Notes under the pieces: model-generated | What the model was told of the DNA's origin: nothing | Database searches by the model: none | What the model saw: only the letters and a program-made list of their open reading frames with translations | Shown: in pieces, positions 1,581 to 24,032 of the stretch | How positions within the stretch are numbered: the first letter of the stretch is position 1 | Layout of the letters: every line of letters starts with the position of its first letter | Translations under genes and position numbers: made by a program | Source of the DNA: Caulobacter sp. | GTDB lineage: Bacteria; Pseudomonadota; Alphaproteobacteria; Caulobacterales; Caulobacteraceae | DNA length: 42,653 bases | NCBI GenBank assembly: GCA_017744495.1 | Contig: JAGIBE010000213.1 | Coordinates: forward strand, 1-42,653 | Direction: 5' to 3'

Positions 1581-3290
1581 TCAGCGGCCGGCGACCGCGG
1601 CGAGCACCTGGAAGTGCTCGACGATCGGGCCCAGCGCCAATGCGGGGAAGAATTGCAGGCCGCCCAGGATCAGGATCACCCCGATCAGCAGTCCCACGAA
1701 CAGGCCGCCATGGGTCGGCAGCGTGCCGGCCGAGGGGGCCAGCTTGGGCTTGGCGGCCAGCGAACCGGCGATGGCCAGCACCGCCACGATCGGCAGGAAC
1801 CGACCCATGGCCATCGACACGGCCAGGGTGGTGTCCCACCAGGGCGCGTTGGCGGTGAGGCCGGCGAAGGCCGAGCCGTTGTTGGCCGTACCCGAGGTGT
1901 AGGCGTAGAGGATTTCCGACAGGCCGTGCGGCCCTGAGTGCATCAGGCCCTTCAGCGCCTCGGGCAGAACGGCGGCGATCGCCGAGAAGCCTAGGACGCA
2001 GACCGGGATGGCCAGCACGGCCAAGATCGACAGCTTGACCTCGCGCGCCTCGATCTTCTTGCCGAGATATTCGGGCGTGCGGCCCACCATCAGCCCGGCG
2101 ACGAACACCGCCAGCACGGCCATGACGACCATCACCGCGATGCCGGAACCAATGCCGCCGGGCAGGATCTCGCCCAGGTGCATCAGGAACATGGCGATGC
2201 CGCCGCCCAGGGGCATCAGGCTGGAATGCATGCCGTTGACCGAGCCGTTCGAGGCCCCTGTGGTCATGGCTGCCCAGGCAGCGGTGGCCGGCGCGCCGAA
2301 GCGGGTCTCCTTGCCCTCCATGTTGACGGTTGTGTCGACGTGCGCGGCGACCTGGGCCGGGGCCGGCTGGGCCTCGGCGACATAGATGCCGGCGGCGGCG
2401 GCGAACAGCAGCACGCTCGCCGCGACCACCAGGGCGCGCACGTCCTTCCGCGCCAGGACCGAGCGGCCGAAGGCGAAGAAGGCGGCCCAGCCCAGCACGT
2501 TGATCGACACGGCCGTGATCAGGTTGGTCAGGGGCGTGGGGTTCTCGAACGGGTGAGCCGAGTTGGCGTTGAAGATGCCTCCGCCGTTGATGCCCAGCAT
2601 CTTGATCGCCTCCTGCGAGGCCACGGCGTAGAGCGAGATCTTCTGGTCGGCGCCCTCCAGGGTGTGGGCGGTGACCCCCGCCGCCAGGGTCTGGGGCATG
2701 CCCAGGGCGACCAGCAGGACGGCCAGGACGAAGGACAGCGGCAGCAGCACATAGAGCGTGGTGCGGATCAGGTCGGCCCAGAAGTTGCCGACACCCCCTT
2801 CCCGGTTGGCCACGAAGGCGCGCGCCAAGGCCGCGGCCACGGTCGCGCCGGTGGCGGCGGAGACGAAGTTCTGAACGGTCAGCACGACCATCTGGCTGAG
2901 CGTCGACATGGTCGTCTCGCCCGCATAGCTCTGCCAGTTGGTGTTGGTGACGAAGCTGATCGCCGTGTTGAACGACAGGTGCTCTGAGATCGCCCCGAAG
3001 CCCTGCGGGTTCAGCGGGAGCACGCCCTGCAGGCGCAGGACGCCGTAGGTGATCAGGAAGCCGACCAGGTTGAAGGCCAACAGGGCCCCGGCGTAGCCGT
3101 ACCAGCTCTGCCCCTTCTTCGGATCGATCCCGCAGGCGGTGTAGAAGAACGCCTCGAACGGCCGAAGCACCGGGTCGAGCCAGGTGCGTTCGCCGTTCCA
3201 GACACGCGACATGTAGACGCCCAGCGGCCAGCCGATCGCGACCGCCAGGCCGAGCGTCAGGGCGATTTCCGCCCAGCCTTGCCAATTCAT
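1581..3290 (-). CDS. kdpA: Potassium-transporting ATPase subunit A
   Basis: Channel-like subunit of KdpFABC that selects and conducts K+ across the inner membrane. The protein has 569 residues, normal for the family, with about ten hydrophobic segments. All four pore-loop regions typical of KdpA can be read in order: TNTNWQSY near residue 117, [19 protein letters not shown] near 235, [20 protein letters not shown] near 345, and [11 protein letters not shown] near 470. The ATG at 3290 is preceded by GGAAA at about 7 nt. It lies 13 nt after kdpF and 11 nt before kdpB, so the genes form one leftward operon. Nothing is truncated or unusual. Confidence 0.98.
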
Positions 3291-3841: not shown

Positions 3842-6800
3842 CTAGAAACGGACCCGGATGTCGAGCCCGGCCGATTGGGCGCGGGTGCGATCGCCGAACT
3901 CCCGGTCATAGTTGAAGCGCACCGACACGCGGTCGTCGCCGATCACCCGGAAGTCGACGCCGGCCGTATAGGCGCTGCGGTCCAGGGTCGTGCCGACCCG
4001 CGCCGCCTCCGATGTCGGATTGGCTCCCACCAGACGGAACGGCATTTCGATCCGGTCAGTGGTGTTGAACAAGCCGCCGACGCGGAACGACACCGCCGTC
4101 TGGCTGCGCACGCCCTGGCGCATCACGAAGCCCAGCGTCACCTCCGGATTGGCCGTGCCGATGAACTGGGTATGGGACGCGCCGCTCGCACCCAGGCCGC
4201 CGAGGCCATCCTCGGTGAACTTCTGTTGATGCAGACCGGTGGACCAGACGTTCAGCGCCGGGCGCACGAACAGCCGCCCGTTCTCGACCACATAGGCGAA
4301 GCGCGCGTCGGTACGGAGATAGCCGCTCTCCGGCTCGGCCTCGCCGCGTCCCGGCGCGAAGACCTCCACCGCGCGCGTGGTGTCCATCCACTGCCAACCG
4401 CCAGACAGCGAGAAGGCCATCTCGGCTGCGCCCGTCCGCTTCTTCAGGCCCAGGCCGGCGTTGAAGCCCTGCCCTTCGCCCAGCGAACGCATGTTGTCGA
4501 CATTGACCTGGTCCAGCCGCTCGTAGCCGACCGCCGCGGCCAGCGACCAGTCGCCCGCCAGCGGACGCTCGAAGCCGCCGCGCAGGCGCCCGCCCTCGGC
4601 CTTCGCCCCGAGGGTCTCGGCGTCGGCCTCGCCGCGCGAGGTGACCCGCTCGATCGCCGCCCAGGCGCACTTGCCGTCCGGGCTCGAACCCGGGCTGACG
4701 CAGTTGAACAACTGGCTCGAGAAGCTGTCGGCCGAGTACAGCTGGCTGCGCAGCGGCGCCAGGTAGGGCTCGGGATTGAGCTCGCCGAAAATCCGCGAGT
4801 AGGTCGCTTCCTCGCCCGTCTCCAGATTGCCGATCAGCGCCATCAACCGGCCCATGCCGCCGGAGTCACCGGTGATGAGGGCGGAGTTCATGTGCCGGCC
4901 CAGCGCCTGGCCGTTGATATTCAGGAAGCTCTGGTCGAAGTGCGGCGTGAAGGCCAGCTGCACGCCGGCTGAGCCGGTCTGAATCCGATAATCCATCGCC
5001 AGGGTGTCGGCGATCTTCAAACCATTGTCGGTCGCCGAGCCGGACGCGAACAAGGTGACCGGCTTGGCGTCCTGCAGCCAGGTCAGGGTCACTTCGCCCG
5101 TGCCCGCCACGGTGGCCGAGCCCGTAACGTCGACATGGTCGGACGCATAGGGCCCGAAGGCCACGTCGAACGCCATATGGCCGGTCGCGGTCTGGACGAA
5201 GTTTCCGTCGATCGCGACCGTGTTGATCACCCGCAAACCGTAATAGGGGTTGGCCGCCGGATCGCCCAGATCGTCGTAGTCGCCGAACTGCGCGCCGCCC
5301 GCCAGGTCGATCGGCGCACGCGGCGCCGAAAGCCCCATCAGGAAGTCGCCGCTGTTCGTGAACGTCCCGCCCGGGATCGCGGCCGCCGACAGCGACAGGC
5401 TCGCCATGCGGGCGGCGGCCGAATGCGCCGTCGTCTCGCGCAGTGCGATCGAATGGGCGGCGATGAAGGTCGCGCCGTCGTGGTTGACGAAGCTGTTGCT
5501 CCCGCCGCCCAGATCGACGTCGCCGATGACCACGCCCTGGTTGTCGACATGGTCGTCGCCGCCCGAGGCCTGGATGGCCAGATTCGAGATCGCCGAGACG
5601 TGGCCGGTGTTGACCAGGGTGTTGTCGGCCCCGCCGTCGATCACGACGCCCGCGCCCGTCCCCGAGCCGCCACGCGTCACGCCGGCCAGGCTGATAGCGA
5701 TGTCGCCCGCCCCGTTGGAGCCCTGGCTCTGGGCGAAGACGGCAATGCCGTTCGCGCCGACCGCCATCACGTCGTCGGCCAGGGCCAGAGCGATCGAACC
5801 ACCCGCCCCTTCGCCGCCCGCCGCGCCTTGGAACACGCCGTCAACCCAGCCGCCGCCACCGCCCAGGCTCTGGACCGCGACGCCGTAAGCACCCGCGCCC
5901 GTCGTCAGGACGCCGCCGGTCTGGGTGAAGACGATGTCGCCGCCGTCGCCGTTGTTGTTCTGGTTCAGGGTCACGCCGGCCAGGCCCTCACCCAGCACCG
6001 CGCCGCCGCCGCCGCCGATCGACTGCAGCAGCACGCCATGCGCCCCCGCGCCCGTCGTGACGATAACGCCGTCCTGGTCGAGCGTGACGCCGCCGCCGTC
6101 ACCCGTCGCGCCGCCGGTTCCGCCCAAGATCGTCTCGCCGCCACCGAGACTGGTCAGGTTGACCACGCCGCCGCCCGCGCCGATCGACTGGACCAGCAGG
6201 CCCGCGGCGTGATCGCCCGTCGTGACGATCGCCCCATCGAACCGGGCCGAGACCGTCCCGCCCGAAAGGCCCGTCCCGCCGGCCGCGCCCAGGCTCAGGG
6301 TCGGGGTGACCGTCGTCGCGTCCGCGCCCGTGAGACTGACGTCGGCCACGCCGCCGCCACCGCCCACGCTCTGCAGGATCGCGCCGGCGCCGAGCGCGCC
6401 CGTGGTGGTGATCGAGCCCTGATGGACGCGCGTCACCGCGCCGCCGCCCTCGTCGCTCCCGTTCTGGCCGCCCAGGGCCACCGAGACGGGTCCGACCGCC
6501 GCGCCTTGCGCCACGTCTACGGTGACCACGGCCCGGCCGCCGCCGCCGCCGATCGACTGGTCGAGCACGCCGGGTGAATGGTCGCCGTTGGTCAGGATGT
6601 CGCCGGTCTGGGTATTGTCCAGGACGCCGCCGGCGTTGCGCACGCCGTCGATCCCGCCCAGGGCCGCGTTAACCGCCAGGGCCATGGCCTCGCCGCCGAC
6701 CTCGGCCGCGGGATCGACCGCGAGAGCGGACACAGCGTCGTCCTCGGGCTGGGCCGCGACCTCGAGATCGACGCGCAGGGTCCCGCCGCCGCCGCCGATC

Positions 6801-9800
6801 GACTGGTTGAAGATACCCGCGGCGTTGTCGCCCGCCACGCCATACGTGCCGGTCGAGATCACATGCACCGCGCCGGCGTTCATGTCGGTCGCGCCCTCGG
6901 CGCCCGCCCGGGCGGCGATCCTCGGATCGGCCGGCGGAGTCGTGGCGTTGTCGCCGGCCAGCGGCATGCCCTTGCGGCCGTAGACCTGCCTCAGATCGAA
7001 GGCCAGCTGGCCGCCGCCGCCGTTGATGCTCTGGGCCACGATGGCCTGCGAGCCGTCCCCCAGGGTGGTGATGTCGCCGGTGTGGACTACCGTGACCTCG
7101 CCGCCCTGGCCGCCGTCGCCGGTCCCGACCGCGCCGAGGACGGCGTTGATCAGGCCCGACGTGCTAATGGCCCCGAGGTCGGTCGACGCCGAAATCGCCG
7201 CGCCGGCGTTGCCGCCGCCGCCACCGATCGATTGGGCCAGGATCCCATCGGCGTTGGCGCCCAGGGTGACGATCGAGCCGGCGTTCTCGACCCGCACCGC
7301 GCCGCCGTCTCCACCGTCGCCGCCGATCCCGCCCACCGAGAGCATGGGTGCGGACGACTCCTTGGCGATGTCCAGGGCCAAGGTCAGCACCATGCCGCCG
7401 TTGCCGCCGCCGCCGCCGATCGACTGGGCCAGGATACCGTGCGCGCCCTCGCCGCTCGTGCCGATGACGCCGTCGTTATAAACAGCCACTTCGCCGCCGG
7501 TGTTGCCCGAACCTCCCGCGCCGCCGATGTTCAGCGAGGCCGAGGTGCTGCCCGTGCCGCCCGTCATGAAGGTGATCGAGCGGATCGAGCTGCCGTTGCC
7601 GCCACCCCCGCCGATCGACTGGGCGAAGACGCCATAAGACTCCTTGCCCTCGGTGAGGATCAGGCCCGACCGCTCGTCCTCGCCCGCCGGGCGGTTGGTG
7701 ACGGTGACAGCGCCGCCCGTGCCGCCGGTCCCGCCCGACCCGCCGATGTTCATCGCCGTGCGCGTCGTCGCGCGCGAACCGGACTTGATCGAGCCGCCGT
7801 CGTTCATCACGCCGGCGTCGCCGCCGCCGCCGCCGATGCTGTTCGCAGAGATGCCCGAGGAATAGTCGCCCTTGGTCCAGATCAGGCCTGTATTGACCAC
7901 ATCGACCGCGCCGCCCGTGCCGCCGGCGCCGCCCGAACCGCCGATGTTGATGAAGGTCGACAGCCGCGAGGCGCTCTTGTTCGTGTCGCGCGATGTGGTG
8001 ATGGTCGCACCGCCCACGCCGCCGCCCCCACCCACCGACTGGGCGCGAACGCCGTCCGCGTAGAGGCCTTCGGTGACGATCTGGCCCTCGTTCCGGACGC
8101 TGACCACTCCGCCGACCCCGCCCGAACCGCCCTCGCCGCCCAGGGCGATGCTCATGGCGCCGGCCGAGGAATCGCTCTTCGCGGCCTGCACCGGATCGGC
8201 GTAGGTCACGGTCGCCCCGCCCACGCCGCCGCCGCCGCCCACCGATTGCGCGAGCACGCCGTCGGACCGGTCGCCCCGGGTCCAGACTAGGCCGCTCTGA
8301 GTGACGTCGACCACGCCGCCGTCGCCGCCGGTCCCGCCTTGGCCGCCCAGCACGACCTTGCCGGTGAATGTGCTGAGGATCAGGTTCAGCGCCATGCCGC
8401 CCGCGCCACCGCCGCCGCCGATCGACTGGGCCAGCAGGCCCCGCGCCTCGACGCCGCGCGTGACGACCTGGGCGTCGCTGGTCACTATCACCTGGCCGCC
8501 GTCGGCGCCCTGGGCGCCCTCCAGGCCGATGGTCATGCCCGCTTCGTAGACTTGCTTCTCGGCGTCGCTGCCGGTGCGGGTCTGGGCCCCGACCGAGATC
8601 GCGCCGCTCTTGCCGCCGCCGCCGCCGATCGACTGCGCGTAGAGACCGCCGGAGCGGTCGCCGGTCGTGTCGAGCGCGCCGCTGATGTCGATCGACAAGT
8701 CGCCGCCGGCCCCGCCGGTCCCGCCTTCGCGACCGATCGCGATGGACAGCTTGTTGCTCGTGCCCAGGGCGAAGTTGCTATTCACCATGGCGTTGCCGCC
8801 GCCGCCGCCCAGCGACTGCACCATGATCGCGTCGGAATCGTCGCCCTTGGTGGAGATCGAGCCATCATGGACGACGGTGATGTCGCCGCCGTCGCCGCCC
8901 GAGGTCGGGTCGCCGCCCAGGGCCAAGGCCAGGGCCGTGGTCTTTGGGAAGTAGCCGGCGCCGAGGTTGTAGTTGGCGTTGCCGCCGCCCCCGCCTTGCG
9001 ACAGCACCACCAGGCCGTCGGAATTGGCTCCATCGGTGACGATGTCGCCCCGGTTGGTCACGCTGACGTCGCCGCCGTCGCCCGAGCTGCCGCCGTTGCC
9101 GCCGATCGCCATCGACACGGCGATACTCTCGCTGGTCGGTGTCTCGGCGCTGACGCCGTCGGTCGAGAAGCCGAGCACGGCGTTGACGCCCGCGTCGCCG
9201 CCGCCCCCGCCCGTCGACTCCACATAGACGCCGGCCGAGTTGTCGCCGAACGTGATGACCGAGCCGGCGCGCGCCTCGTCGTCGTCCGGGTCGCCGCGCA
9301 CCACGGTGATGTCGCCGCCGTCGCCGGCCACGCCGCCCGAGCCGCCGACGCCGATGGTCAGCGGGCTGCCCGACAGCGCCACGACGCCCGTGACATTGAT
9401 GCCGCCCGAACCACCGCCGCCGCCGATGGCCATCACCGACACGCCCTTGGCCCCGCCGGTGTAATCGGCCGAAGCCAGGCTGGCCTTGCCCGCCGCGTCG
9501 GTCACGACCTTGGCGTTGACGATCACGTCGCCCACGCTGACCAGCGAGACGTCGCCCGCGTCGGCCCCGACGCCGCCATGACCGCCGATGCCGACGCCCA
9601 GGGCGTAGCCGCGTTCCTCGCTGCTGCCGTTGGTGGCCGAGAGCGTGACGTTCAGGCCGCCGTCGCCGCCGCCGCCGCCGATCGAGCGCACCAGCACGCC
9701 CCCGGCCTCGACGCCCTGGACCCAGACGTCGCCGGTCTGGACCACCGAGACGTCGCCCGCGACGTCGCCGTTCCCGCCGCCGCCGCCGACGCCGAAGGCG

Positions 9801-12800
9801 ATCACCGGCTCCGAACTGTCGGAGCCGCCCTTGATCCCGCCGGCGATGTTGATGCCGCCGTCGCCGCCTCCGCCGCCCAGGGACTCGACCAGCAGACCGC
9901 GCGAGCGCCAGCCGTGGGCCGAGAGGTCGGCGTCGACCACGGCCGTGACGTCGCCGCCCTGGCCGCCGCCGCCGCCGAAGCCGCCCACGCCCAGCGTGGC
10001 CGAGCCGTCCAGCGCGAAGCTGCCCGCGACGTTGATCGCCCCGTTGCCGCCGCCACCGCCGATGCTCTGGATGGCGACCGCCGACTCCGTGTCGCCCTTC
10101 GAGGTGATGACGGTGCGGTCGTCCTGCGTGCCGGCGATAGTCGCCGTGACGTCGCCGGCATCGCCACCGTCGCCGCCGAAGCCGCCGATGCCGATCGCCG
10201 CCGCGCGGCCGGCGCTGTCGGAGCCGCCGTTGATGACCAGGTCGCCGGTAACGTTGATCCCGCCCGAACCGCCGCCCCCGCCCAGCGACTGGACGACGAC
10301 GCCGCTGGAGCCCATCCAATTGGTCTCGCCCACGGGCTGGCCGTGTTCGTCATAGACGTTGCGGGTGATAACGTCCGTACCGGTGGTGACGCTGCCGGTG
10401 ATCGTGGCGGCTACGTCGCCGGCATTGCCGCCGCCGCCCCCAAAGCCGCCGACACCCACGCCAAGACCCAGGGAGTCACTCTCCAGGCTGACCGAGACCG
10501 TGCCGGTGACGTTCAGGCCGCCCGAGCCGCCCGAACCGCCTATCGACTGGACGCTGATGCCGTCCGAGCTGTGGCCGTCGGTCTGGGTCGCGCCGGTGCG
10601 CGTGACGGCGACGTCCCCGGCATTGCCGCCCGCCCCCCCGAAGCCGCCCAGGCCCAGGCCCACCGTGCCGGCGTCGCCCGATGCGACATTGATCGCGCCG
10701 GTGACGTTGATCGCCCCCGCGCCGCCGCCCCCGCCCAGCGACTGGATCAGCGCGCCGATGGCGTCGTCGCCCTCAGTCTGGATGTCGCCGGTGAGCGCGG
10801 CGGTCACCGCCGCCCCGTCGCCGCCGCCGCCGCCGAAGCCGCCCACGCCCAGGCCGATCAGGCCGCTCTGCACCTCGGCCGCCGTCACCGACAGGCCGCC
10901 GGCGATGTTCATGCCGCCGACACCGCCGCCGCCGCCCTGGCTGACCACGGCCACGGCGCTCGCGCCGTCGCCCTTAGTGTGAACATCGCCGGTCAGGCCG
11001 GCGAGCACCGCGCCCGCGTCGCCGCCGCCGCCGCCCAGGCCGCCGATGCCGACCAGCACCGAGGCCGCGTCGGTGGCGATCGTCACCCCGCCGCTGACGT
11101 TGAATCCGCCCGCGCCGCCGCCGCCGCCCTGGCTCTGGACCAGCACGCCCGTGCCCTTAGCGCCTTGGGTGAAGACGTCACCGGTGATCGTGGCCGATAC
11201 CGCGCCCGCATCGCCGCCGTCACCGCCCGAACCGCCGACGCCCACGCCGACATTGGTGGCCGTGTCGGCCGCGATCGACAGCTGGCCCTCGATGTCGAAG
11301 CCACCCGAGCCGCCGCCTCCGCCGATGCTCTGGGCCACCACCCCGCGCGAGCCGGAGCCCTTGGTGTAGGCCACGTAGTTGGAGTCGCCGGTGTCCGAGG
11401 CCGCGTTGCTGGCCAGGGCCAGGGTCACAGCCGCGCCCGAGCCCCCGTCGCCGCCCGAGCCGCCGACGCCCACCCCGATATTGGTCGCCGCATCGGCGGT
11501 GATCGACATCTGGCCCGTAGCGTTGAATCCGCCTGAGCCACCGCCGCCACCCACGCTCTGGGCCACGACGCCGTCGCTGCCGCCGCCTTCGGTGAGGATC
11601 TGGCCGATGATGTCGAGGTCGACAGCCCCGCCGGCGCCGCCGCCGCCGCCCGAACCGCCGACGCCCACGCCGATCGAACCGCCGCCGGCCGTGGCGATGG
11701 TGGTCATGCCCGTCACGTTGAAAGCCCCGGTCCCGCCGCCGCCGCCCACGCTTTGGGCGGTCACCCCGGCCGAGTTGCCCCCCGTCGTCTCGACATCCCC
11801 ACGGACGGTCGCCTGAAGCGCCCCGCCGCTGCCGCCGGCGCCGCCCGAGCCGCCGACGCCCACGGAGACGCTGCTCCCCGACTGCCCCGTGATCGACAGC
11901 GTCCCAGCGACGTCGAAACCGCCGGAACCGCCACCGCCGCCCGCGCTCTGAGCCAGCACGCCACGCGAAACCGCACCTTCGGTACTGGCCAGAAGGCGAC
12001 TGTCGCCGGTTCCCGACGCCAGCTGGCTGGAGGCCGCCAGGGTCACCGACGCACCGTCGCCGCCCCCACCGCCCGAGCCGCCGACACCCACGCTGACGCC
12101 TCCGCCGGCGCCGCTCGAGCCGTTGACCGCGCCGGACACGTTGAAGCCGCCCGAACCGCCGCCGCCGCCCAGGCTCTGGGCTACGATGGCGTCGCTGAAA
12201 CCGCCCTTGGTCGAGGCGCCGCCGGCCACGTCCAGCGACACCGCCCCGCCGTTCCCGCCGCCGCCGCCCGAACCGCCGACCCCGACCGACACCGTGGCCG
12301 CCGAGCCGCCCGAAACGCTCAAGCCCGCCGCGACGTCGAAACCGCCATCACCGCCGCCGCCGCCGACGCTTTGGGCCTTGATCGCGAAGGCCCCCTGCCC
12401 TTCGGTCGTCACCCGGCCGGTCAGCGAGGCGGTCACCGCTCCACCGTCACCGCCCCCGCCGCCCGAGCCGCCGACCCCGACGCCGACCGCGCCCGCCACA
12501 GAGCCCGAAGCTCCCAACGCGCCCGAGACATTGAAGCCGCCGCTCCCGCCGCCGCCGCCGACGCTCTGCGCCAGGAAGCCGTGCGAGCGGTCGCCTTCGG
12601 TCTGGATGTCGCCCGTGATCATCGCCAGCACGTCGCCGGCAGAGCCGCCGCCGCCGCCGGCCCCGCCGACGCCCACGCTGATCGCGCCCGCGCCGTCGCC
12701 GGCCACGCCCAGTCCGCCGGCCACGTTGAAGCCGCCATTGCCGCCACCTCCGCCCACGCTCTGGGCGGTGACCGCGTCCGAGTCGTCGCCAAAGGTCACG

Positions 12801-15800
12801 GCCACCGCGGTGGCTTCGGGATCGCCGCCGGACGCCGCGCCGCTCTTCAGGGCCAGGGTGACGTCGTCAGCCGCGCCGCCGCCGCCGCCCGAGCCGCCGA
12901 CGCCCACGCTGGCGGTGAAGGCCGCCGTGCCGCCGATGCTCAGATCGCCCGAGACGTTGAAGCCGCCGGCGCCGCCGCCGCCGCCCGCGCTCTGGGCCAG
13001 CACCGCTTCGGAGCCGTCGTCGAGCGTCAGCACCAGGCCGTTCACGCCCAGCTTCACCTTGCCGCCCGCACCGCCGGAGCCGCCCGAACCGCCGACACCC
13101 ACGCTCGCCGCCGCGCCGATCCCGCCGCTCAGGGCCGCGTCGCCACTGACGTTGAAGCCTCCCGAGCCGCCCCCGCCGCCGAGGCTCTGGGCCACAACAC
13201 CCGCCGAGTTGTTCCCGCCGGTGACCACCACACCATTGACCTGGAGCTCGACCCCGTCGCCGGCGCCGCCGCCGCCGCCAGAGCCGCCCAGCCCCACGCC
13301 CAGAGAGGCGCCGCCCGAACCGGACGCCGCCAGGGCGCCTGAGACGTCGAAGCCGCCCGAACCGCCGCCGCCGCCCACCGACTGGGCGATGATGGCGTCG
13401 GAGTCGTCGCCCAGGGTAGTGATCACGCCCGACAGGGTCGCCTTCACGGTCCCGCCCGCGCCGCCGAAGCCCCCTGCTCCACCCAGTCCGATGGTCAGGG
13501 CGTTGCCCGAGGCGATCTGCGCCGAAGCCGCGCCGGAGATGTTGAAGCCGCCGCTACCGCCGCCTCCGCCCACGCTCTGGGCCAGGAAGCCGCCCGACTG
13601 ATCGCCCTCGGTATGGATGTTGTGCGCCGTCGCCTCGACCGCCCCGCCGGCCCCGCCGCCACCGCCCGCGCCGCCCAGGCCGACCGCGACCGCCGCGCCG
13701 GCCCCGCCGCCGATGTCGACGCCGCCCGCGAAGTCGAAGCCGCCCGAACCGCCGCCGCCGCCCATCGACTGGACGATCACGCCGGCGGACTTGTCGCCGT
13801 AGGTCACGACGTCGTCGGCGATGTCGGCCGTGGCGCGGGCGCCAGCTCCGCCGCCGCCGCCCGCGCCGCCCAGGCCCACGCCGATCGCGCCGCCGCCGCC
13901 GGTCGCCAGCGACAGCGCGCCCGAGACGTTGAACCCGCCGCTGCCGCCGCCCCCGCCGACGCTCTGGACCAGCACGCCGGCCGACTGGTCGCCGTCGGTA
14001 GTGACCACGCCGCCCGTGGCGCCATAGGCGTCGCCGCCGTCTCCACCACCGCCCCCGACGCCGCCGACACCGACTCCGACAGCCACGCCGGTCGCCGCCG
14101 CGGACAGCGATCCGGCGACGACGAAGCCCCCCGCGCCGCCGCCGCCGCCCACCGACTGCACCACCAGACCGCCGGAGCGGTCGCCCTCCGTGGCGATGTC
14201 GCCCCCGACATAGCCCGACACCGAGCCTCCGGCGCCGCCCATGCCCCCCGTCCCGCCGACTCCGGCCGAGCCCGCGCCCGTGTCGCCGACCGCCAGCGCC
14301 GCCGCGCCGCTGATGGCGTAGCCGCCCGAACCGCCGCCGCCGCCCACCGACTGGATCAGCGCGCCCTTGGCGTCGTCCCCGTAGGTGGTGATCGCCCCCT
14401 CGAACGCCGCGCCGACATTGCCGCCGGCCCCGCCGCCGCCGCCTTGGCCGCCGACGCTCACCGAGGCCGCCACCGACGCGACGATCCCGCCCGCGCCGGC
14501 GAAGGCCAGGGCGTAGCCCCCGCTCCCGCCGCCACCGCCGACCGACTGGGCGACCAGGCCCGTCGAGAACCGCCCCGTGGTCTGGATCGAGCCGCCCGAG
14601 ATCACGTCGACCTGGCCGCCGGCGCCGCCGCCGGCGCCCGAGCCGCCGATCGCCGCCGCGAACGCGCCGCCTCCCGCTTGGCTGGCCGCCACGGTGAGGC
14701 TGAGGGCGTAACCGCCCGCGCCCCCGCCGCCGCCCACCGACTGCGCGAAGATCCCCTCGGCGCTGTCGCCCCTGGTGGTGATGCTGGCGTCGCCCTGGAT
14801 CCAGACCGCGCCGCCCTTGCCGCCCACCGAACCGTCGCCGCCGATGGCCGCGCTGGCGCCCACGCCGTAACCCACCGCCGTCGCGCTGGCGAAGCCGCCC
14901 GCGCCGCCGCCGCCGCCCACCGACTGGGCGAAGATCCCGCGCGAGCGGTCGCCTTCGGTGTCGATGGTCGGATCGATATCGACGGTGGCCCCGCCGACGT
15001 TCACGGAGATCGGAACCAGGTTGACCGTCACCACGCCGCCGTCGCCGCCGCTGTCGCCCTGGCCGCCGATCGCCGCGCCCCCGAACACGCCGACCGACGT
15101 CGCCGAGCCGCCGCTGCCGCCGCCCCCGCCAATGGACTCTGCGAAAATGCCGTTGGAGTCGTCGCCCTTGGTGTGGATCGCCCCGCCGTGGGTCACCGTC
15201 ACCGCGCCCGACTTGCCGCCGATGTCGCCCGTGCCGCCGATGGTCAGGAACACCCCGCCTGACGAACCGCCGTCGCCGCCGCCCCCGCCGATCGACTGGG
15301 CCTGGATGGCGCTGCCGTGATCGCCGTTCGTGTTGATCGCCCCTGTATTGATCACCGACACGTCGCCGCCGTCGGCCGCCGCGCCGCCGGCCCCGCCCAG
15401 GGCCGCCAGGCCTCCCGCGTCGCTGCCCGAACCGCCGCCGCCGCCGATCGACTGGGCCAGGACACCCAGGGCGAAGTCGCCTTCGGTCGTGATCCAGCCG
15501 GCGTTCTGGACGGTCACCGTCCCGCCGTCGCCGCCCGAGCCGCCGTGGCCGCCCAGCGCGACCAGGCCGACCGAATAGCCGCCCGCCCCGCCGCCGCCGC
15601 CGATCGACTGGGCCAAGATGCCGGTCGCGCCCTTGCCGTAGGTGTGAATCGACGAGGCCGCGCCGGTGACCACCGTCACCGCGCCGCCATCGCCCCCAGC
15701 GCCGGCGACCGTGTCGCCCAACGAGACGATGCCCGCGCCGTCGCCGGCCGAACCGCCCGAACCGCCGATCGACTGGGCGACGATGCCGTAGGAGTCGTAG

Positions 15801-17329
15801 CCGCTGACGTCGTCGCCGTGGGCGTTGAAGTCCCAGCCGACCTCGTCGCCGGTGACGATGGTCCCGTTGTTCTCGACATAGACGCTACCGGCGTTGCCGC
15901 CGGTGCTGCCGGACGCGGCGCCGGCTACGATGCCATAGCTGGACCCGCCCGTGCCCGCGCCGCCGCCCAGGCTCTGGGCCGAGACGCCCGCCGAGCCGTA
16001 GCCGACCGTATGTAGATAGCCGTCGTTATAGACGTGGACGTCGCCCGACTGGGCGGCCGCGCCGCTGACCGCGCCGTTCGACAGGCCATAGCCGTCGCCG
16101 CCGTTGCCGCCCGTGCCGGCGCGGCTCTGGGCGAAGATCGCCGCCGCGCCTTTGCCCGTGGTGGTGACCGAGGTGTGGTTGGTCAGGTCGACGTCGCCGC
16201 CGGCTCCCGCCTTTCCGCCCCGACCGCTGACCACGTAGCCGTAGCCGTTGCCGCCCGTACCGCCGCTGCCGCCCTGGCTGAGGGCGAAGATGCCGGCCAG
16301 CTTGTCCGTCGCGGTCTTGATCGGACCGTCGGCGGCGTAGACCGTCGCCGTGACGTCCAGCCCGGCGCCGCCGTTGCCGCCGTTGCCCGGCTCCTTGCCG
16401 ATCGTAACGCAGCCGAGGAAGCCGAGGCAGACGCGAACGCCTCCGCCGTCGGCGCCGTTCTTGCCGTTGGCGCCGATGCTCGAGAAGATGCGGTTGTTGA
16501 TATCGCCCGCCCCGCCCCACGAGGTCAGCGCGCCGTTCGGATCGGTGGCCCCGGTCGCGCCGGCCGGCGGATTGACCAAGGGCGTGACTAGGTCGAACGA
16601 CACGGCGTTGTTGGACGCGTCCTTGACCTTCAACTTCGGGTGGGCCGGGTCGGTATTGTCCACCGACACCACGGTGTAGGTCTTGCTGGTCCCGGTCGGA
16701 TCGGGCGTGCCGTCGTCCGGATGGGCGCCCGTGCCCTGGTCGGCGACGGTGAAGGTGGTGCCCGCCGCCATCGGCACCAGGATCAGATTGCCGCTCTCGG
16801 TGCGGACCGTGATCGCGTTGACGATCTCGGCGATCTCCTCCTGCTGGCCCGTGGCCGGGTTCGTGATCATGTCGTCGACATGATAGGCCGCCGTCGGATT
16901 GGGCGGCGGGGCAGGATCGGCCGCCGCCAGGTTCGGGGCGCTCATCGCCACGATCGCGGCCACCGCTACGGCCAGACGCCGCAGCTCGCGGCTCAGTCGC
17001 TTGCCGATCATGTTCCGATGGCCAGGGGCCGCCAGGCTCGAAACCGCGATCTCGACATCTGCCTCGACCGGGATCGGCGCCAGCCCTTCGGCGAGGGCCA
17101 GGAAGCCCGCGTGCAGCGCGATCAGGTCGGGCTTGCGGCTCCGCGACAGCAGGCCGGCGATCTCCAGCACCTGGGCGCGCGCCGAGGCGCGGTCGGTGTT
17201 GGACAGGTCACGCTCGGACGCCAGTTTCTCCAGCCCGCGCAGCATCAAGGCGATCTTGGCGCACGCCTTGGAAGCCGCATCCACGCCCATCGGCGCGTCG
17301 TTTTGGTTTTCGGGCGTCGGCGCTTGCAC
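3842..17329 (-). CDS. Giant glycine-rich repeat autotransporter (type Va adhesin-like)
   Basis: Predicted surface protein of 4,495 residues. I chose the GTG at 17329 because GGAAGG (17337-17342) sits 7 nt upstream; a longer start at 17404 has no such site. Domain order: a 106-residue helical extension, a Sec signal peptide (MIGKRLSRELRRLAVAVAAI onward, probable cleavage after PNLAA), a short non-repeated region, about 55 glycine-rich repeats of the form (G)VxAQSxGGGGGxGG spaced about 64 residues, a non-repeated stem, then an autotransporter beta-barrel of roughly the last 285 residues ending in ...IRVRF with the terminal Phe typical of outer-membrane proteins. The passenger is almost free of cysteine, apart from a pair in VCLGFLGC near its start; another pair (residues about 4210 and 4221) precedes the barrel. 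Adhesion or biofilm function is inferred from the family; no enzymatic motif is visible. Confidence 0.93.
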   Translation of the reverse strand: MQAPTPENQNDAPMGVDAASKACAKIALMLRGLEKLASERDLSNTDRASARAQVLEIAGLLSRSRKPDLIALHAGFLALAEGLAPIPVEADVEIAVSSLAAPGHRNMIGKRLSRELRRLAVAVAAIVAMSAPNLAAADPAPPPNPTAAYHVDDMITNPATGQQEEIAEIVNAITVRTESGNLILVPMAAGTTFTVADQGTGAHPDDGTPDPTGTSKTYTVVSVDNTDPAHPKLKVKDASNNAVSFDLVTPLVNPPAGATGATDPNGALTSWGGAGDINNRIFSSIGANGKNGADGGGVRVCLGFLGCVTIGKEPGNGGNGGAGLDVTATVYAADGPIKTATDKLAGIFALSQGGSGGTGGNGYGYVVSGRGGKAGAGGDVDLTNHTSVTTTGKGAAAIFAQSRAGTGGNGGDGYGLSNGAVSGAAAQSGDVHVYNDGYLHTVGYGSAGVSAQSLGGGAGTGGSSYGIVAGAASGSTGGNAGSVYVENNGTIVTGDEVGWDFNAHGDDVSGYDSYGIVAQSIGGSGGSAGDGAGIVSLGDTVAGAGGDGGAVTVVTGAASSIHTYGKGATGILAQSIGGGGGAGGYSVGLVALGGHGGSGGDGGTVTVQNAGWITTEGDFALGVLAQSIGGGGGSGSDAGGLAALGGAGGAAADGGDVSVINTGAINTNGDHGSAIQAQSIGGGGGDGGSSGGVFLTIGGTGDIGGKSGAVTVTHGGAIHTKGDDSNGIFAESIGGGGGSGGSATSVGVFGGAAIGGQGDSGGDGGVVTVNLVPISVNVGGATVDIDPTIDTEGDRSRGIFAQSVGGGGGAGGFASATAVGYGVGASAAIGGDGSVGGKGGAVWIQGDASITTRGDSAEGIFAQSVGGGGGAGGYALSLTVAASQAGGGAFAAAIGGSGAGGGAGGQVDVISGGSIQTTGRFSTGLVAQSVGGGGGSGGYALAFAGAGGIVASVAASVSVGGQGGGGGAGGNVGAAFEGAITTYGDDAKGALIQSVGGGGGSGGYAISGAAALAVGDTGAGSAGVGGTGGMGGAGGSVSGYVGGDIATEGDRSGGLVVQSVGGGGGAGGFVVAGSLSAAATGVAVGVGVGGVGGGGGDGGDAYGATGGVVTTDGDQSAGVLVQSVGGGGGSGGFNVSGALSLATGGGGAIGVGLGGAGGGGGAGARATADIADDVVTYGDKSAGVIVQSMGGGGGSGGFDFAGGVDIGGGAGAAVAVGLGGAGGGGGAGGAVEATAHNIHTEGDQSGGFLAQSVGGGGGSGGFNISGAASAQIASGNALTIGLGGAGGFGGAGGTVKATLSGVITTLGDDSDAIIAQSVGGGGGSGGFDVSGALAASGSGGASLGVGLGGSGGGGGAGDGVELQVNGVVVTGGNNSAGVVAQSLGGGGGSGGFNVSGDAALSGGIGAAASVGVGGSGGSGGAGGKVKLGVNGLVLTLDDGSEAVLAQSAGGGGGAGGFNVSGDLSIGGTAAFTASVGVGGSGGGGGAADDVTLALKSGAASGGDPEATAVAVTFGDDSDAVTAQSVGGGGGNGGFNVAGGLGVAGDGAGAISVGVGGAGGGGGSAGDVLAMITGDIQTEGDRSHGFLAQSVGGGGGSGGFNVSGALGASGSVAGAVGVGVGGSGGGGGDGGAVTASLTGRVTTEGQGAFAIKAQSVGGGGGDGGFDVAAGLSVSGGSAATVSVGVGGSGGGGGNGGAVSLDVAGGASTKGGFSDAIVAQSLGGGGGSGGFNVSGAVNGSSGAGGGVSVGVGGSGGGGGDGASVTLAASSQLASGTGDSRLLASTEGAVSRGVLAQSAGGGGGSGGFDVAGTLSITGQSGSSVSVGVGGSGGAGGSGGALQATVRGDVETTGGNSAGVTAQSVGGGGGTGAFNVTGMTTIATAGGGSIGVGVGGSGGGGGAGGAVDLDIIGQILTEGGGSDGVVAQSVGGGGGSGGFNATGQMSITADAATNIGVGVGGSGGDGGSGAAVTLALASNAASDTGDSNYVAYTKGSGSRGVVAQSIGGGGGSGGFDIEGQLSIAADTATNVGVGVGGSGGDGGDAGAVSATITGDVFTQGAKGTGVLVQSQGGGGGAGGFNVSGGVTIATDAASVLVGIGGLGGGGGDAGAVLAGLTGDVHTKGDGASAVAVVSQGGGGGVGGMNIAGGLSVTAAEVQSGLIGLGVGGFGGGGGDGAAVTAALTGDIQTEGDDAIGALIQSLGGGGGAGAINVTGAINVASGDAGTVGLGLGGFGGAGGNAGDVAVTRTGATQTDGHSSDGISVQSIGGSGGSGGLNVTGTVSVSLESDSLGLGVGVGGFGGGGGNAGDVAATITGSVTTGTDVITRNVYDEHGQPVGETNWMGSSGVVVQSLGGGGGSGGINVTGDLVINGGSDSAGRAAAIGIGGFGGDGGDAGDVTATIAGTQDDRTVITSKGDTESAVAIQSIGGGGGNGAINVAGSFALDGSATLGVGGFGGGGGQGGDVTAVVDADLSAHGWRSRGLLVESLGGGGGDGGINIAGGIKGGSDSSEPVIAFGVGGGGGNGDVAGDVSVVQTGDVWVQGVEAGGVLVRSIGGGGGDGGLNVTLSATNGSSEERGYALGVGIGGHGGVGADAGDVSLVSVGDVIVNAKVVTDAAGKASLASADYTGGAKGVSVMAIGGGGGSGGINVTGVVALSGSPLTIGVGGSGGVAGDGGDITVVRGDPDDDEARAGSVITFGDNSAGVYVESTGGGGGDAGVNAVLGFSTDGVSAETPTSESIAVSMAIGGNGGSSGDGGDVSVTNRGDIVTDGANSDGLVVLSQGGGGGNANYNLGAGYFPKTTALALALGGDPTSGGDGGDITVVHDGSISTKGDDSDAIMVQSLGGGGGNAMVNSNFALGTSNKLSIAIGREGGTGGAGGDLSIDISGALDTTGDRSGGLYAQSIGGGGGKSGAISVGAQTRTGSDAEKQVYEAGMTIGLEGAQGADGGQVIVTSDAQVVTRGVEARGLLAQSIGGGGGAGGMALNLILSTFTGKVVLGGQGGTGGDGGVVDVTQSGLVWTRGDRSDGVLAQSVGGGGGVGGATVTYADPVQAAKSDSSAGAMSIALGGEGGSGGVGGVVSVRNEGQIVTEGLYADGVRAQSVGGGGGVGGATITTSRDTNKSASRLSTFINIGGSGGAGGTGGAVDVVNTGLIWTKGDYSSGISANSIGGGGGDAGVMNDGGSIKSGSRATTRTAMNIGGSGGTGGTGGAVTVTNRPAGEDERSGLILTEGKESYGVFAQSIGGGGGNGSSIRSITFMTGGTGSTSASLNIGGAGGSGNTGGEVAVYNDGVIGTSGEGAHGILAQSIGGGGGNGGMVLTLALDIAKESSAPMLSVGGIGGDGGDGGAVRVENAGSIVTLGANADGILAQSIGGGGGNAGAAISASTDLGAISTSGLINAVLGAVGTGDGGQGGEVTVVHTGDITTLGDGSQAIVAQSINGGGGQLAFDLRQVYGRKGMPLAGDNATTPPADPRIAARAGAEGATDMNAGAVHVISTGTYGVAGDNAAGIFNQSIGGGGGTLRVDLEVAAQPEDDAVSALAVDPAAEVGGEAMALAVNAALGGIDGVRNAGGVLDNTQTGDILTNGDHSPGVLDQSIGGGGGRAVVTVDVAQGAAVGPVSVALGGQNGSDEGGGAVTRVHQGSITTTGALGAGAILQSVGGGGGVADVSLTGADATTVTPTLSLGAAGGTGLSGGTVSARFDGAIVTTGDHAAGLLVQSIGAGGGVVNLTSLGGGETILGGTGGATGDGGGVTLDQDGVIVTTGAGAHGVLLQSIGGGGGAVLGEGLAGVTLNQNNNGDGGDIVFTQTGGVLTTGAGAYGVAVQSLGGGGGWVDGVFQGAAGGEGAGGSIALALADDVMAVGANGIAVFAQSQGSNGAGDIAISLAGVTRGGSGTGAGVVIDGGADNTLVNTGHVSAISNLAIQASGGDDHVDNQGVVIGDVDLGGGSNSFVNHDGATFIAAHSIALRETTAHSAAARMASLSLSAAAIPGGTFTNSGDFLMGLSAPRAPIDLAGGAQFGDYDDLGDPAANPYYGLRVINTVAIDGNFVQTATGHMAFDVAFGPYASDHVDVTGSATVAGTGEVTLTWLQDAKPVTLFASGSATDNGLKIADTLAMDYRIQTGSAGVQLAFTPHFDQSFLNINGQALGRHMNSALITGDSGGMGRLMALIGNLETGEEATYSRIFGELNPEPYLAPLRSQLYSADSFSSQLFNCVSPGSSPDGKCAWAAIERVTSRGEADAETLGAKAEGGRLRGGFERPLAGDWSLAAAVGYERLDQVNVDNMRSLGEGQGFNAGLGLKKRTGAAEMAFSLSGGWQWMDTTRAVEVFAPGRGEAEPESGYLRTDARFAYVVENGRLFVRPALNVWSTGLHQQKFTEDGLGGLGASGASHTQFIGTANPEVTLGFVMRQGVRSQTAVSFRVGGLFNTTDRIEMPFRLVGANPTSEAARVGTTLDRSAYTAGVDFRVIGDDRVSVRFNYDREFGDRTRAQSAGLDIRVRF
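5680..16303 (-). repeat. About 55 tandem coding repeats of about 193 nt
   Basis: This tract encodes the autotransporter passenger. Each unit carries a core like DxSxGVxAQSVGGGGGSGGFN, then a second glycine block like VGVGGSGGGGGxGG, then a short strand and I(Q/T)T(E/K)GD. I counted 55 cores by eye over about 3,541 residues. Units near 11080-14000 are the most alike, sharing GGFNVSG. Units at both ends are more diverged, and the last ten lose the second glycine block. Runs of GGC/GGT codons give the DNA a strong CCG periodicity and long meaningless open frames on the opposite strand. Confidence 0.9.
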
Positions 17330-17660
17330 TGTCTTACCTTCCGTTGCGCACGGACCTCGTCTGTCGGCGCGCGCGGTCGGGAGCGGTCCTTCGACACGCT
17401 CCATCAGAGTGGGAATGGGCGGATCCGGTCTCGATCAGCGATCGTGACGGATGGCGGCCGCGTTGGCGGCGAGGCTCAGGACTGGACCGGGCGGGTCCAG
17501 GAGCGGATCGTTGCTACGGACAAAGCGTTCCCCCAAACAAAAGAGTTGACGGAATTTAACTAACCGTGGTTACGCGAGTTGGCATGCTGCAGCTTACCCA
17601 TTGCGTGTTTTTTCCGGTGACGAAAGCGTACGACCGCCGCGTCGGAGTGGAGCGGCGCGG
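17330..17660. promoter_or_regulatory. Divergent promoter region with TAACCGTGGTTA inverted repeat
   Basis: Space between the leftward giant autotransporter gene and the rightward double-HTH gene. TTGACGG at 17546-17552 matches the -35 element (TTGACGS) known for the Caulobacter housekeeping sigma factor and points toward the HTH gene. The 12-bp inverted repeat TAACCGTGGTTA at 17561-17572 (arms TAACC/GGTTA) lies where the -10 region would be, a good place for a repressor. The strip 17330-17404 could be coding if the autotransporter starts further upstream. No clear promoter for the autotransporter was recognised. Confidence 0.45.
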
Positions 17661-18608
17661 GTGAGCGACCCGTCGCGAGTATCTGTCCCGAGCGGCGCGT
17701 TCGGGGACTTCCGGGAGTGGGAGATCGCCCGGGCGTCCCTAGGCTTCATCCGTGACGTCGTCCGGATCACCCGAGGCGACCGGCATTTTATCGACGCCTT
17801 GATCTTCACCGTCGCGCTCGACGCCAACATGGCGCCGGTCACCAGGGACCGCAGCCTCCTGGCCGCCTACGGGGGCGCGGAGACCTCGACGCCCGACGAG
17901 TTGCGACGCCCCGTCAGCATCAATGCGGTGGCCACCTCGCTGCGGCTGCCGCTGGAGACCGTGCGGCGGCGTTTCCTCAACATGGCCCGCGCCGGCCTCT
18001 GTGTGATCGGCCCGCAGGGCGTGATCATCCCGCGCGAGGCTGTGACCTCGCCGGTCTATCTCGCCGAGCAGCGCGCGCGCTTCGATCGCACCCGCGACTT
18101 CTACCAGGCGATGAAGGCGGCGGGCGCCTTGCCGGACCGGATCGCCGCCGAGGTATCGCCGGCGGAGGGCGAGCCCCTGGTGCGGGCCGCCAACTGGGCC
18201 GTCTCGGAATATGCGCTGCGGATCTGCGGCGACCTGATCGGCCTCACGGGCAGCGTCATAAGCAGCCTCGTCCTGCTGGACCTGGTGCTGGCCAATATCG
18301 ACCCGCTTCCACCCGAAGCGATACCCGACTGGGGTCGCGACCCCGAACGCCTGGGGCGGCCGGTCCGCATCAGTGCGCTGGCCGGTCCGCTGCGTCTGTC
18401 CAGCGAGACCATCCGGCGTCACCTGCTCGCCTTGGAGACGCTCGGCTTCTGCCGTCGTAAGTCGGGCGGCCTGGTCGCGGTCGCGCCCGACTCCGCCGGA
18501 CCGCAATTGGCCCGCATCGTCGAGACCAACCGGACCAACAGCGCGCGCTTGTTCGCGCGCCTGGGCCAACTGGGCGTCCTCGACGGCTGGGACGCCTCGC
18601 TCGCCTAG
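17661..18608 (+). CDS. Protein with two duplicated helix-turn-helix units, putative regulator
   Basis: A protein of 315 residues from the GTG at 17661, chosen because GGAG at 17649-17652 is 8 nt upstream; a TTG at 17601 lacks a site. It has no known family that I can name. Two halves of about 120 residues repeat each other. Each has a hydrophobic helix, then RPVSINAVATSLRLPLETVR / RPVRISALAGPLRLSSETIR, which reads as a winged helix-turn-helix, then a wing-like strand and a closing helical segment (FYQAMKAAGAL / LFARLGQLGVL). One chain could therefore imitate a regulator dimer. It is divergent from the autotransporter gene with an inverted repeat between, which suggests it controls that gene and itself. 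It ends 15 nt from the convergent ABC-F gene. The duplication is seen directly; the target is inferred. Confidence 0.8.
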   Translation: MSDPSRVSVPSGAFGDFREWEIARASLGFIRDVVRITRGDRHFIDALIFTVALDANMAPVTRDRSLLAAYGGAETSTPDELRRPVSINAVATSLRLPLETVRRRFLNMARAGLCVIGPQGVIIPREAVTSPVYLAEQRARFDRTRDFYQAMKAAGALPDRIAAEVSPAEGEPLVRAANWAVSEYALRICGDLIGLTGSVISSLVLLDLVLANIDPLPPEAIPDWGRDPERLGRPVRISALAGPLRLSSETIRRHLLALETLGFCRRKSGGLVAVAPDSAGPQLARIVETNRTNSARLFARLGQLGVLDGWDASLA

Positions 18609-18623
18609 ACGCGAGGACCGCCG

Positions 18624-20252
<1,629 letters not shown>

Positions 20253-21903: not shown

Positions 21904-22149
21904 GCGAGTTTAGTCGCCGATCCAAACCCGAGCTTCACTCCCTCCGCGGACATTTCCGAATTCAAAGATCCCACCATCGACAGATAAGCCACTCTAATCT
22001 TCACACTTGGACTGCGCATGAGCCGTCCTTGTCGGAAATGGCCGCTTCACTACTTGCAGACGTCTGGAAAGTGCATTCGGGGGGATGCTGTACATTATTT
22101 TTTTGAGGATTAGGCTTCGACACGCAGGTCAGAGCGGCGTGGACGTTTC
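21904..22149. promoter_or_regulatory. Divergent intergenic region of the efflux genes, palindrome CAGACGTCTG
   Basis: 246 nt between the TolC-type gene and the MacB-type ATPase gene. A perfect 10-bp palindrome, CAGACGTCTG, lies at 22057-22066, with looser outer arms ACTT/AAGT. The stretch around 22090-22110 is T-rich. It could hold an operator for both directions, but no regulator gene is adjacent. No gene is supported here. Confidence 0.3.
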
Positions 22150-24029: not shown

Positions 24030-24032
24030 AGC

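Follow-up and report, generated by a model that had tools for sequence, protein, structure and literature searches.

Locus and reading frame

The DNA analyzed here is a stretch of 42,653 nucleotides from Caulobacter sp. (assembly GCA_017744495.1, contig JAGIBE010000213.1; hereafter, the window), which forms the start of contig C213 in a genome of 4.3 Mb, 290 contigs and 85% completeness. It carries a gene for a 4,495-residue autotransporter with a long glycine-rich repeat array, flanked by kdpA and a divergently transcribed candidate regulator (Table 1). A preliminary description of this DNA, which left the strand unstated, had reported a single uninterrupted 13.5-kb frame of about 4,495 residues. 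This was confirmed on the minus strand, where a stop-free frame runs from an ATG at 17404 to 3842 (4,520 amino acids) and comprises exactly 4,495 residues when read from the GTG at 17329; the plus-strand translation of 3842-17329 contains stops. The GTG is the likelier start, because an AAGGTA...GACA stretch precedes it both in the window (GGAAGGTAAGACA) and in the nearest ortholog (AAAAGGTAGAGACA; locus L036, Caulobacter sp. UNC358MFTsu5.1), and homology begins there. Hence, a putative ribosome-binding site of the GTG start is conserved in L036. The calculated product has a mass of 414 kDa and an isoelectric point (pI) of 4.2, and 27% of its residues are glycine.

Table 1. Features of the autotransporter gene and its surroundings in the window. 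Segment borders within the protein were chosen in this analysis. E, expectation value; pLDDT, predicted local distance difference test; dN/dS, ratio of nonsynonymous to synonymous substitution rates.
Feature	Position	Strand	Basis or remark
Whole gene, type Va autotransporter, 4,495 aa	3842..17329	-	GTG start at 17329; stop codon 3842-3844
N-terminal extension, residues 1-107, Ala/Leu-rich	17009..17329	-	no Pfam family; alignable in four relatives
Predicted Sec signal peptide, residues 108-138	16916..17008	-	hydropathy; hydrophobic core from 119, LAAA-DP end
N-terminal cap, residues 139-344, C-x5-C motif	16298..16915	-	alignment, dN/dS
Repeat array, residues 345-3861, 52-56 units, 65-aa consensus	5747..16297	-	own-repeat profile; two xGG-triplet segments and a predicted rung
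Four consecutive mid repeats, residues 1117-1375	13205..13981	-	AlphaFold2, pLDDT 86.6
Non-repeat passenger part and start of linker region, residues 3862-4090	5060..5746	-	AlphaFold2 model
PF03797 autotransporter β-domain, residues 4223-4475	3905..4663	-	E 1.1e-17, 65 bits vs. cut-off 26
kdpA	1581-3290		flanks gene; TIGR00680, E 1e-210
335-aa winged-helix-like protein, candidate regulator, divergent	17601..18608	+	HTH_DeoR, 24 bits vs. cut-off 21
ABC-F ATPase	18624-20252		beyond the winged-helix-like protein

The C-terminus of a type Va autotransporter

The barrel segment directly follows the linker, which ends at residue 4090, and reaches residue 4495. An aromatic last residue is the barrel signal of type Va autotransporters. 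In line with the RF ending given in the preliminary description, the protein terminates in ...IRVRF, and the final Phe is likewise terminal in six aligned relatives. Neither Pfam nor NCBIfam returned a family when the whole protein was scanned, most likely owing to the low-complexity filter, since the C-terminal piece alone matches PF03797. NCBIfam scans of five pieces of the gene gave no credible name, with a single chance match at E 0.59.

The C-terminal 941 residues were modeled with AlphaFold2 from 12 sequences (mean pLDDT 76.2; predicted template modeling score, pTM, 0.63). The model displays short-strand rungs at model residues 11-410 (block pLDDT 81-98), which become patchier up to about residue 580, followed by helices at 584-653 (39-56) and by long barrel strands (50-86). 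The low-confidence helices at 584-653 are candidates for an α-helical linker within or in front of the barrel. The first 15 Foldseek ranks were all autotransporters or translocators (EspP, AaaA, EstA, NalP, BrkA, AIDA-I), with template modeling (TM) scores by target of 0.28-0.56. Further, VIA-align superimposed EspP on model residues 631-941 (Z 18.3), and Vag8 (Z 20.9) and UpaB (Z 19.2) on model residues 12/13-575, i.e., about residues 3566-4129 of the protein. The C-terminal passenger part is thus predicted to be β-helical, a fold that is not universal in the type Va family. Together with the PF03797 match, the predicted β-helix and barrel identify the protein as a classical (type Va) autotransporter; both had been anticipated in the preliminary description, and the outcome it named as refuting, a predicted structure lacking the β-barrel, did not arise.

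The glycine-rich repeats carry a strict triplet phase

The repeats follow the 65-residue consensus AGVLAQSIGGGGGSGGFNVSGALSIAGDASGAVSVGVGGSGGGGGDGGAVTVTNTGDITTEGDGS, with two glycine segments (A and B) made of xGG triplets. Motif counts gave 48 repeats under a strict and 52 under a looser definition. A profile of the repeats found 58 domains, 52 of them with an independent E value below 1e-3 and 56 below 0.1, in agreement with the roughly 55 repeats noted earlier; as this profile was trained on the very same protein, its count is descriptive and not a test. Runs of at least three consecutive xGG triplets occur 63 times, whereas 200 shuffled versions of the whole protein had 1.5 such runs on average and never more than 6. 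The phase also holds within the segments themselves: in 2,000 within-segment shuffles, the 363 in-phase glycines of 54 B segments compare with a null maximum of 280, and the 288 of 53 A segments with a null maximum of 240. About 92 glycine segments in 56 units qualify, namely 45 A segments (5 of 6 glycines) and 47 B segments (6 of 8). In published work, GGX triplets mark bundles of the polyglycine-II, or glycine-rich polyproline-II, type (PMC13243192, PMC10216338, PMC10235112; here and below, papers given by PMC number are cited from excerpts).

The x positions are mixed in residue type (Ile/Val/Leu; Gly; Ser/Ala/Asn/Asp; Asp/Ala) and partly acidic or large. Overall, the passenger comprises 3,952 residues with a net charge of -206 and a pI of about 4.05. 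No solved structure was matched by a sequence profile of either the barrel or the repeats, and PHROGs gave no match for the repeats, the N-terminal part or the barrel. Within its own genome, a 935-residue query from the giant repeats matched only this gene at E ≤ 0.001.

A model of four mid-array repeats resembles polyproline-II bundles

The structure of four consecutive mid-array repeats was predicted with AlphaFold2 from an alignment with 77 other four-repeat tiles taken from this protein and its orthologs. The best model reached a pLDDT of 86.6 and a pTM of 0.75. In this model, the second and third repeats have no strand or helix assigned in their glycine segments, where ten-residue blocks have pLDDT values of 71-97 (at least 84 in seven of the eight); the blocks of lowest pLDDT in the whole model (61-73) are mostly tips. 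VIA-align matched it to the springtail antifreeze protein 7jjv, with nine polyproline-II helices (Z 13.2; root-mean-square deviation, rmsd, 1.7 Å; 113 of 125 residues), and to the snow-flea antifreeze protein 2pne (Z 8.4, 1.2 Å, 81 of 81 residues). The latter match covers model residues 7-176, which span six glycine segments, matching the six helices of 2pne. Beetle antifreeze chains followed at much larger deviations (4dt5, Z 8.2, 6.3 Å; 6xnr, Z 8.1, 5.8 Å). At 42%, the identity shared with the springtail proteins is probably mostly glycine and does not indicate homology. Matches of the mid repeats to pectate lyase, tailspike and similar proteins (Z 4-7) were set aside as a generic β-solenoid signal.

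Two observations bear on how the chain would run. Firstly, Vag8 matched the model over its chain range 181-281 (Z 7.0, 1.7 Å, 96 residues), which, at about 25 residues per rung, suggests about four rungs for four repeats. Secondly, in the nine-helix springtail antifreeze proteins the even-numbered helices make up one face (PMC10235112), and successive helices therefore alternate between two layers. With two glycine segments per repeat, each repeat would take one step per layer, which agrees with one rung per repeat.

A proposed β-helix spine with a polyglycine-II fin

On this basis we lean, by a modest degree, towards a surface-anchored type Va autotransporter in which a β-helix spine bears a polyglycine-II fin. 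The protein would be exported by Sec, its C-terminal barrel would insert via the β-barrel assembly machinery (BAM), and the passenger would be threaded outward and remain attached, as is usual for the family; by the same analogy, it is probably displayed on the cell surface. In the predicted passenger fold, each 65-residue repeat would contribute one β-helix rung (about 26 residues of the VTVTNTGDITTEGDGSAGVLAQS type) and one out-and-back arm, consisting of a polyglycine-II strand (xGG-GGG-xGG), a variable β-hairpin tip and a returning strand (xGG-xGG-GGG-xGG). The arms of neighboring repeats are predicted to form the two layers of a polyglycine-II sandwich, which would follow the spine as a fin, and the variable tips and exposed x positions of the strongly acidic passenger would form a surface present in many copies.

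The rungs of a β-helix are spaced by about 0.48 nm. Fifty-six rungs would consequently give an array of about 27 nm and, with linker and cap, a passenger of about 30-35 nm, so that the protein would be wider and shorter than its size implies. The suggestion in the preliminary description that such a protein could extend very far from the cell is therefore probably wrong: with one rung per 65-residue repeat and the remainder folded sideways, the array falls below the 45-50 nm measured for the rod formed by the 3,430 extracellular residues of Fap2 (3,744 residues when mature; PMC12397386).

Such a composite solenoid, exported by Caulobacter and scattered relatives, with a polyglycine-II arm on every mid-array rung and about 92 strands stacked as a flat, ribbon-like fin, would be unlike the passengers that we found described; we put this forward tentatively, at somewhat less than even chances. 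It belongs to the same tentative reading that the sandwich would be larger than any named in the cited papers (the largest one mentioned in the excerpt of PMC10216338 is Wag22, with 54 helices), and that chain length would buy width and multivalency, not reach. Among the papers listed in literature searches, one of which (PMC5895577) mentions both polyglycine and autotransporters, we saw no link between autotransporters and polyglycine-II or polyproline-II folds, which is not a claim of absence from print. PE_PGRS proteins, phage S16 gp38, Obg and springtail antifreeze proteins share the GGX or glycine-rich strands and the layered left-handed helices (PMC10216338, PMC13243192, PMC8409303, PMC10235112), and the four-repeat model matches 7jjv and 2pne structurally, without homology being claimed. 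In contrast to these sandwich domains, the strands here would sit as arms on a β-helix and would owe their delivery to an autotransporter barrel.

Should the fin prove real, the number of residues would be no guide to the size of a giant autotransporter, and type V secretion, on a β-helix, would be a new route of delivery and a new context for the polyglycine-II fold. Repeats that are usually dismissed as low complexity would also become readable, as the glycine phase separates spine from arm.

The main alternative is an ordinary giant adhesin, a thin conventional β-helix of about 50-60 nm in which the glycine stretches are mere turns or loops. The C-terminal repeats, which model as a plain β-helix closest to Vag8 and UpaB, speak for it, and scaling by the Fap2 ratio of residues to rod length gives about 54 nm for 3,952 residues. 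However, the strict xGG phase in about 92 segments speaks against a thin rod, as does a four-repeat model that matches polyproline-II bundles with about one rung per repeat, and we regard it as rather unlikely.

Site-by-site change and points against the proposed fin

The site-by-site comparison drew on four ortholog pairs that are not independent, since L037 and L039 were each used twice. Between the window and L036, the GG columns changed at rates of 0-0.07, the x columns of segment B at 0.09-0.31 and those of segment A at 0.11, 0.00 and 0.13, with a mean of 0.18 at the tip. In the rung strand, columns 49-61 alternate (.42.05.29.15.35.13.28.04.15.04.20.04.30), and this alternation of free and fixed positions resembles that of the outward and inward residues of a strand. 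The window protein has 99 inserted residues, 51 of which follow column 28, in the tip, and 36 follow column 54, in one rung turn. When glycines only were compared, those at x positions were lost more often than those at GG in L037/L039 (p 0.007), L041/L039 (p 0.02) and L037/L015 (p 0.0004); the five glycine-only comparisons, including the two given below, share genomes.

Several results weigh against the spine-and-fin reading. In the window pair, the glycine-only comparison shows losses at 1 of 69 x positions and 5 of 661 GG positions (p 0.45), and in the reverse direction at 2 of 70 and 3 of 659 (p 0.075), so the glycine columns could be conserved merely for being glycine; column 11, which is the middle x of segment A and almost invariably Gly, is unchanged in this pair. 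At both ends of the array the repeats are shorter (47-62 residues), and the last ones model as ordinary β-helix. Only one of the five AlphaFold2 models of the mid repeats was good (the others had pLDDT values of 74.2, 70.8, 65.6 and 61.9), and the underlying alignment mixes repeats in different registers. Further, Foldseek assigned 7jjv a probability of only 0.38 with a TM score of 0.13, and VIA-align Z values below about 13 may reflect an arrangement that is common in repeats. The candidate signal peptide was judged by hydropathy.

Possible function

As to the role of the protein, multivalent adhesion by the variable tips or cell-cell association would be the most likely job, a proposal that we consider about as apt to be right as wrong. 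Two other functions are compatible with the same fold. A surface shield, i.e., a dense acidic coat against phages, predators and protein antibiotics, would suit the net charge of -206 and the pI of about 4.05 of the passenger, and the gene is patchily distributed (10 of 61 Caulobacter genomes, see below), as expected under changing outside pressure; however, patchiness also fits an adhesin, and we hold a shield to be improbable. An ice-binding protein, holding the cell to ice or frost by the flat face of the glycine fin, is less probable still. It is brought to mind by the springtail-type antifreeze proteins, which are the closest solved structures to the four-repeat model and whose layer has a flat face of small residues (PMC10235112). 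Yet function cannot be read from a shared fold, the outward x positions of this protein vary in residue type and do not form an Ala/Ser/Thr/Val plane, and the same fold occurs in Obg, phage gp38 and PE_PGRS proteins, which have no ice role.

The gene is intact and under selection

The window protein and L036 (4,506 residues) align over 4,491 codons with 86.8% identity and 19 gap columns. By the Nei-Gojobori method (own script), dN/dS was 0.256 overall, and all 15 windows of about 300 codons fell within 0.144-0.454. By segment, the values were 0.40 for the extension, 0.38 for the signal peptide, 0.08 for the N-terminal cap, 0.27 for the array, 0.24 for the linker and 0.16 for the barrel. When the same codon alignment was read in its five other frames, four gave 1.48-2.48 and one antisense frame gave 0.37; dN/dS alone is therefore not frame-specific, but that antisense frame is interrupted by 65 stops in one genome and 55 in the other. 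From the position-specific base composition, 31 stops are predicted in 4,495 codons and none was found (P about 2e-14), and an accidental open frame was set aside accordingly. The preliminary description had taken the intact frame itself as a sign of selection. Selection is borne out by dN/dS over the aligned codons, whereas intactness alone is a weak argument in DNA of 70-78% GC, in which long open frames arise by accident: the antisense strand of the ortholog L015 is stop-free for 4,293 codons (L015 1316-14194, plus strand). Judged from these comparisons, the gene is intact and kept by selection.

An artefact of assembly or annotation, or a gene in decay, is brought to mind by the accidental L015 frame, by an ortholog in two frames in genome G005 and by a genome (G162) with fragments only, but is very improbable given the near-equal length, few gap columns and low dN/dS relative to L036, stop-free frames of 3,502-4,544 codons in eight of nine genomes (the ninth being cut by a contig end), and a longest exact direct repeat in the gene of 35 nt, below common read length, which makes collapse by short reads unlikely.

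An unusually long extension precedes the predicted signal peptide

The signal peptide of the preliminary description was recovered as a candidate, with a hydrophobic core starting at residue 119 and an NLAAA-DP end near residue 138, but the extension of about 107 residues ahead of it had been overlooked. None of 90 long autotransporter signals listed in print exceeds 84 residues (PMC2805444), compared with about 138 for extension plus signal here. The extension is probably made as protein, because it aligns in four relatives and its dN/dS between the window and L036 is 0.40 (103 codons). An internal ATG at residue 108 would yield an ordinary 31-residue signal in the window; L036 has Thr at this position. 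None of the five N-terminal regions scanned matched a Pfam family. Such a very long pre-signal domain may pace the export of a large, unfolded, glycine-rich chain.

Within the N-terminal cap, residues 139-300 had the lowest dN/dS of the six segments tested (0.084). The cap contains a Cys-x5-Cys motif, VCLGFLGCV (16406-16432, minus strand; Cys301 and Cys307), which takes an ICIPFIGCA-type form in relatives and is found in four of five aligned rows. These are the sole cysteines between residues 139 and 4090.

Size in comparison with known autotransporters

The protein shares a candidate signal peptide, a predicted β-helical passenger and a PF03797 barrel ending in Phe with the type Va proteins EspP, Vag8, UpaB and Fap2; it differs in being longer than Fap2, in its glycine-rich arms and in its pre-signal extension. 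The preliminary description had ranked the gene among the largest of its kind. This holds against Fap2 and against the 3,333 residues of the longest passenger that a 2022 review gives for its largest adhesin group (PMC9289746), but not against BigE, a predicted autotransporter of 10,429 residues from a betaproteobacterium (Celik et al. 2012, PMC3419190), and a number of relatives have frames of comparable size. Compared by description and not by sequence, both BigE and the present protein are giant by internal repetition, and the eight 69-residue repeats of BigE are similar in length to those described here; BigE is 2.3 times longer and contains an eight-fold copy of a whole passenger. Irrespective of the fin, what is recorded here is a giant autotransporter that is conserved across species and whose pre-signal domain exceeds all 90 autotransporter signals listed in the excerpt of PMC2805444.

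Relatives and distribution

Any barrel match was found in 19 of 61 Caulobacter genomes. An orthologous barrel (at least 418 of 421 residues, at least 46% identity) was present in 10, including the source genome; 8 further genomes had only distant barrels (23-26% identity), and G162 had C-terminal fragments only. In named genomes, 13 loci were recovered (10 in Caulobacter, 1 in Sphingomonas kyeonggiensis, 2 in Maricaulis). For nine genomes, frame lengths were obtained via named loci: 4,544, 4,100, 4,043, 4,102, 4,109 and 4,102 codons, 4,257 in Sphingomonas, 3,502 in Maricaulis and, in the ninth, cut by a contig end, 1,085. The number of repeat domains is 49-56 in the window, L036, L037-L042 and L015, and 33-40 in the shorter L043, L016, L017 and L044. 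In the single-contig genome G005, the ortholog is split into overlapping frames of 2,622 and 1,696 codons (L013 5350-17825), owing to an indel that may be a sequencing error or a real loss.

Outside the barrel, an N-terminal query (residues 94-395) matched 15 of 150 genomes of the order, the source genome included, several of the matches lying in frames of 3,502-4,378 codons. The repeat profile at E ≤ 1e-20 matched at least 6 of 398 genomes of the phylum, again including the source genome and all of the same class. A search of plasmids with the barrel returned 59 records, and the matches listed were distant autotransporters only (23.6-27.5% identity). The gene thus belongs to an accessory family of patchy distribution, in which great length is the rule. 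At least six named Caulobacter isolates carry an intact copy, so that structure and role are directly testable.

Four more PF03797 matches were detected in the source genome (C274:2849-3598, C213:103839-104540, C249:15615-16367 and C213:59706-59960), three of them above the cut-off, in frames of 941-1,413 codons.

Neighborhood of the gene

The 335-residue winged-helix-like protein is found in the same place beside the L036 ortholog (83% identity) and is absent from the other ortholog loci read. Its relatives in the Caulobacter genomes compared (G005, G012 and G093) are located elsewhere in the genome, so that conserved pairing with the autotransporter gene is documented in only two genomes. 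Scanning the end of the autotransporter gene for terminators gave one site vs. 0.9 expected, which was set aside.

In L016, a distant giant autotransporter (4622-13798) adjoins the same ABC-F gene (13922-15499) in the opposite orientation, and the ABC-F neighborhood is possibly a favored site. Farther along the window, positions 20353-25343 encode a MacB-like export set, with an OEP/TolC-type protein (minus strand), a LolD/MacB-type ATPase, a permease and a periplasmic adaptor. Between this ATP-binding cassette (ABC)/adaptor set and an extracytoplasmic function (ECF) sigma factor lies a gene for a 157-residue protein (25448-25921, minus strand) with weak similarity to PraA/PraB (NF041561/NF041562, E about 1e-18 to 1e-17, below the cut-offs).

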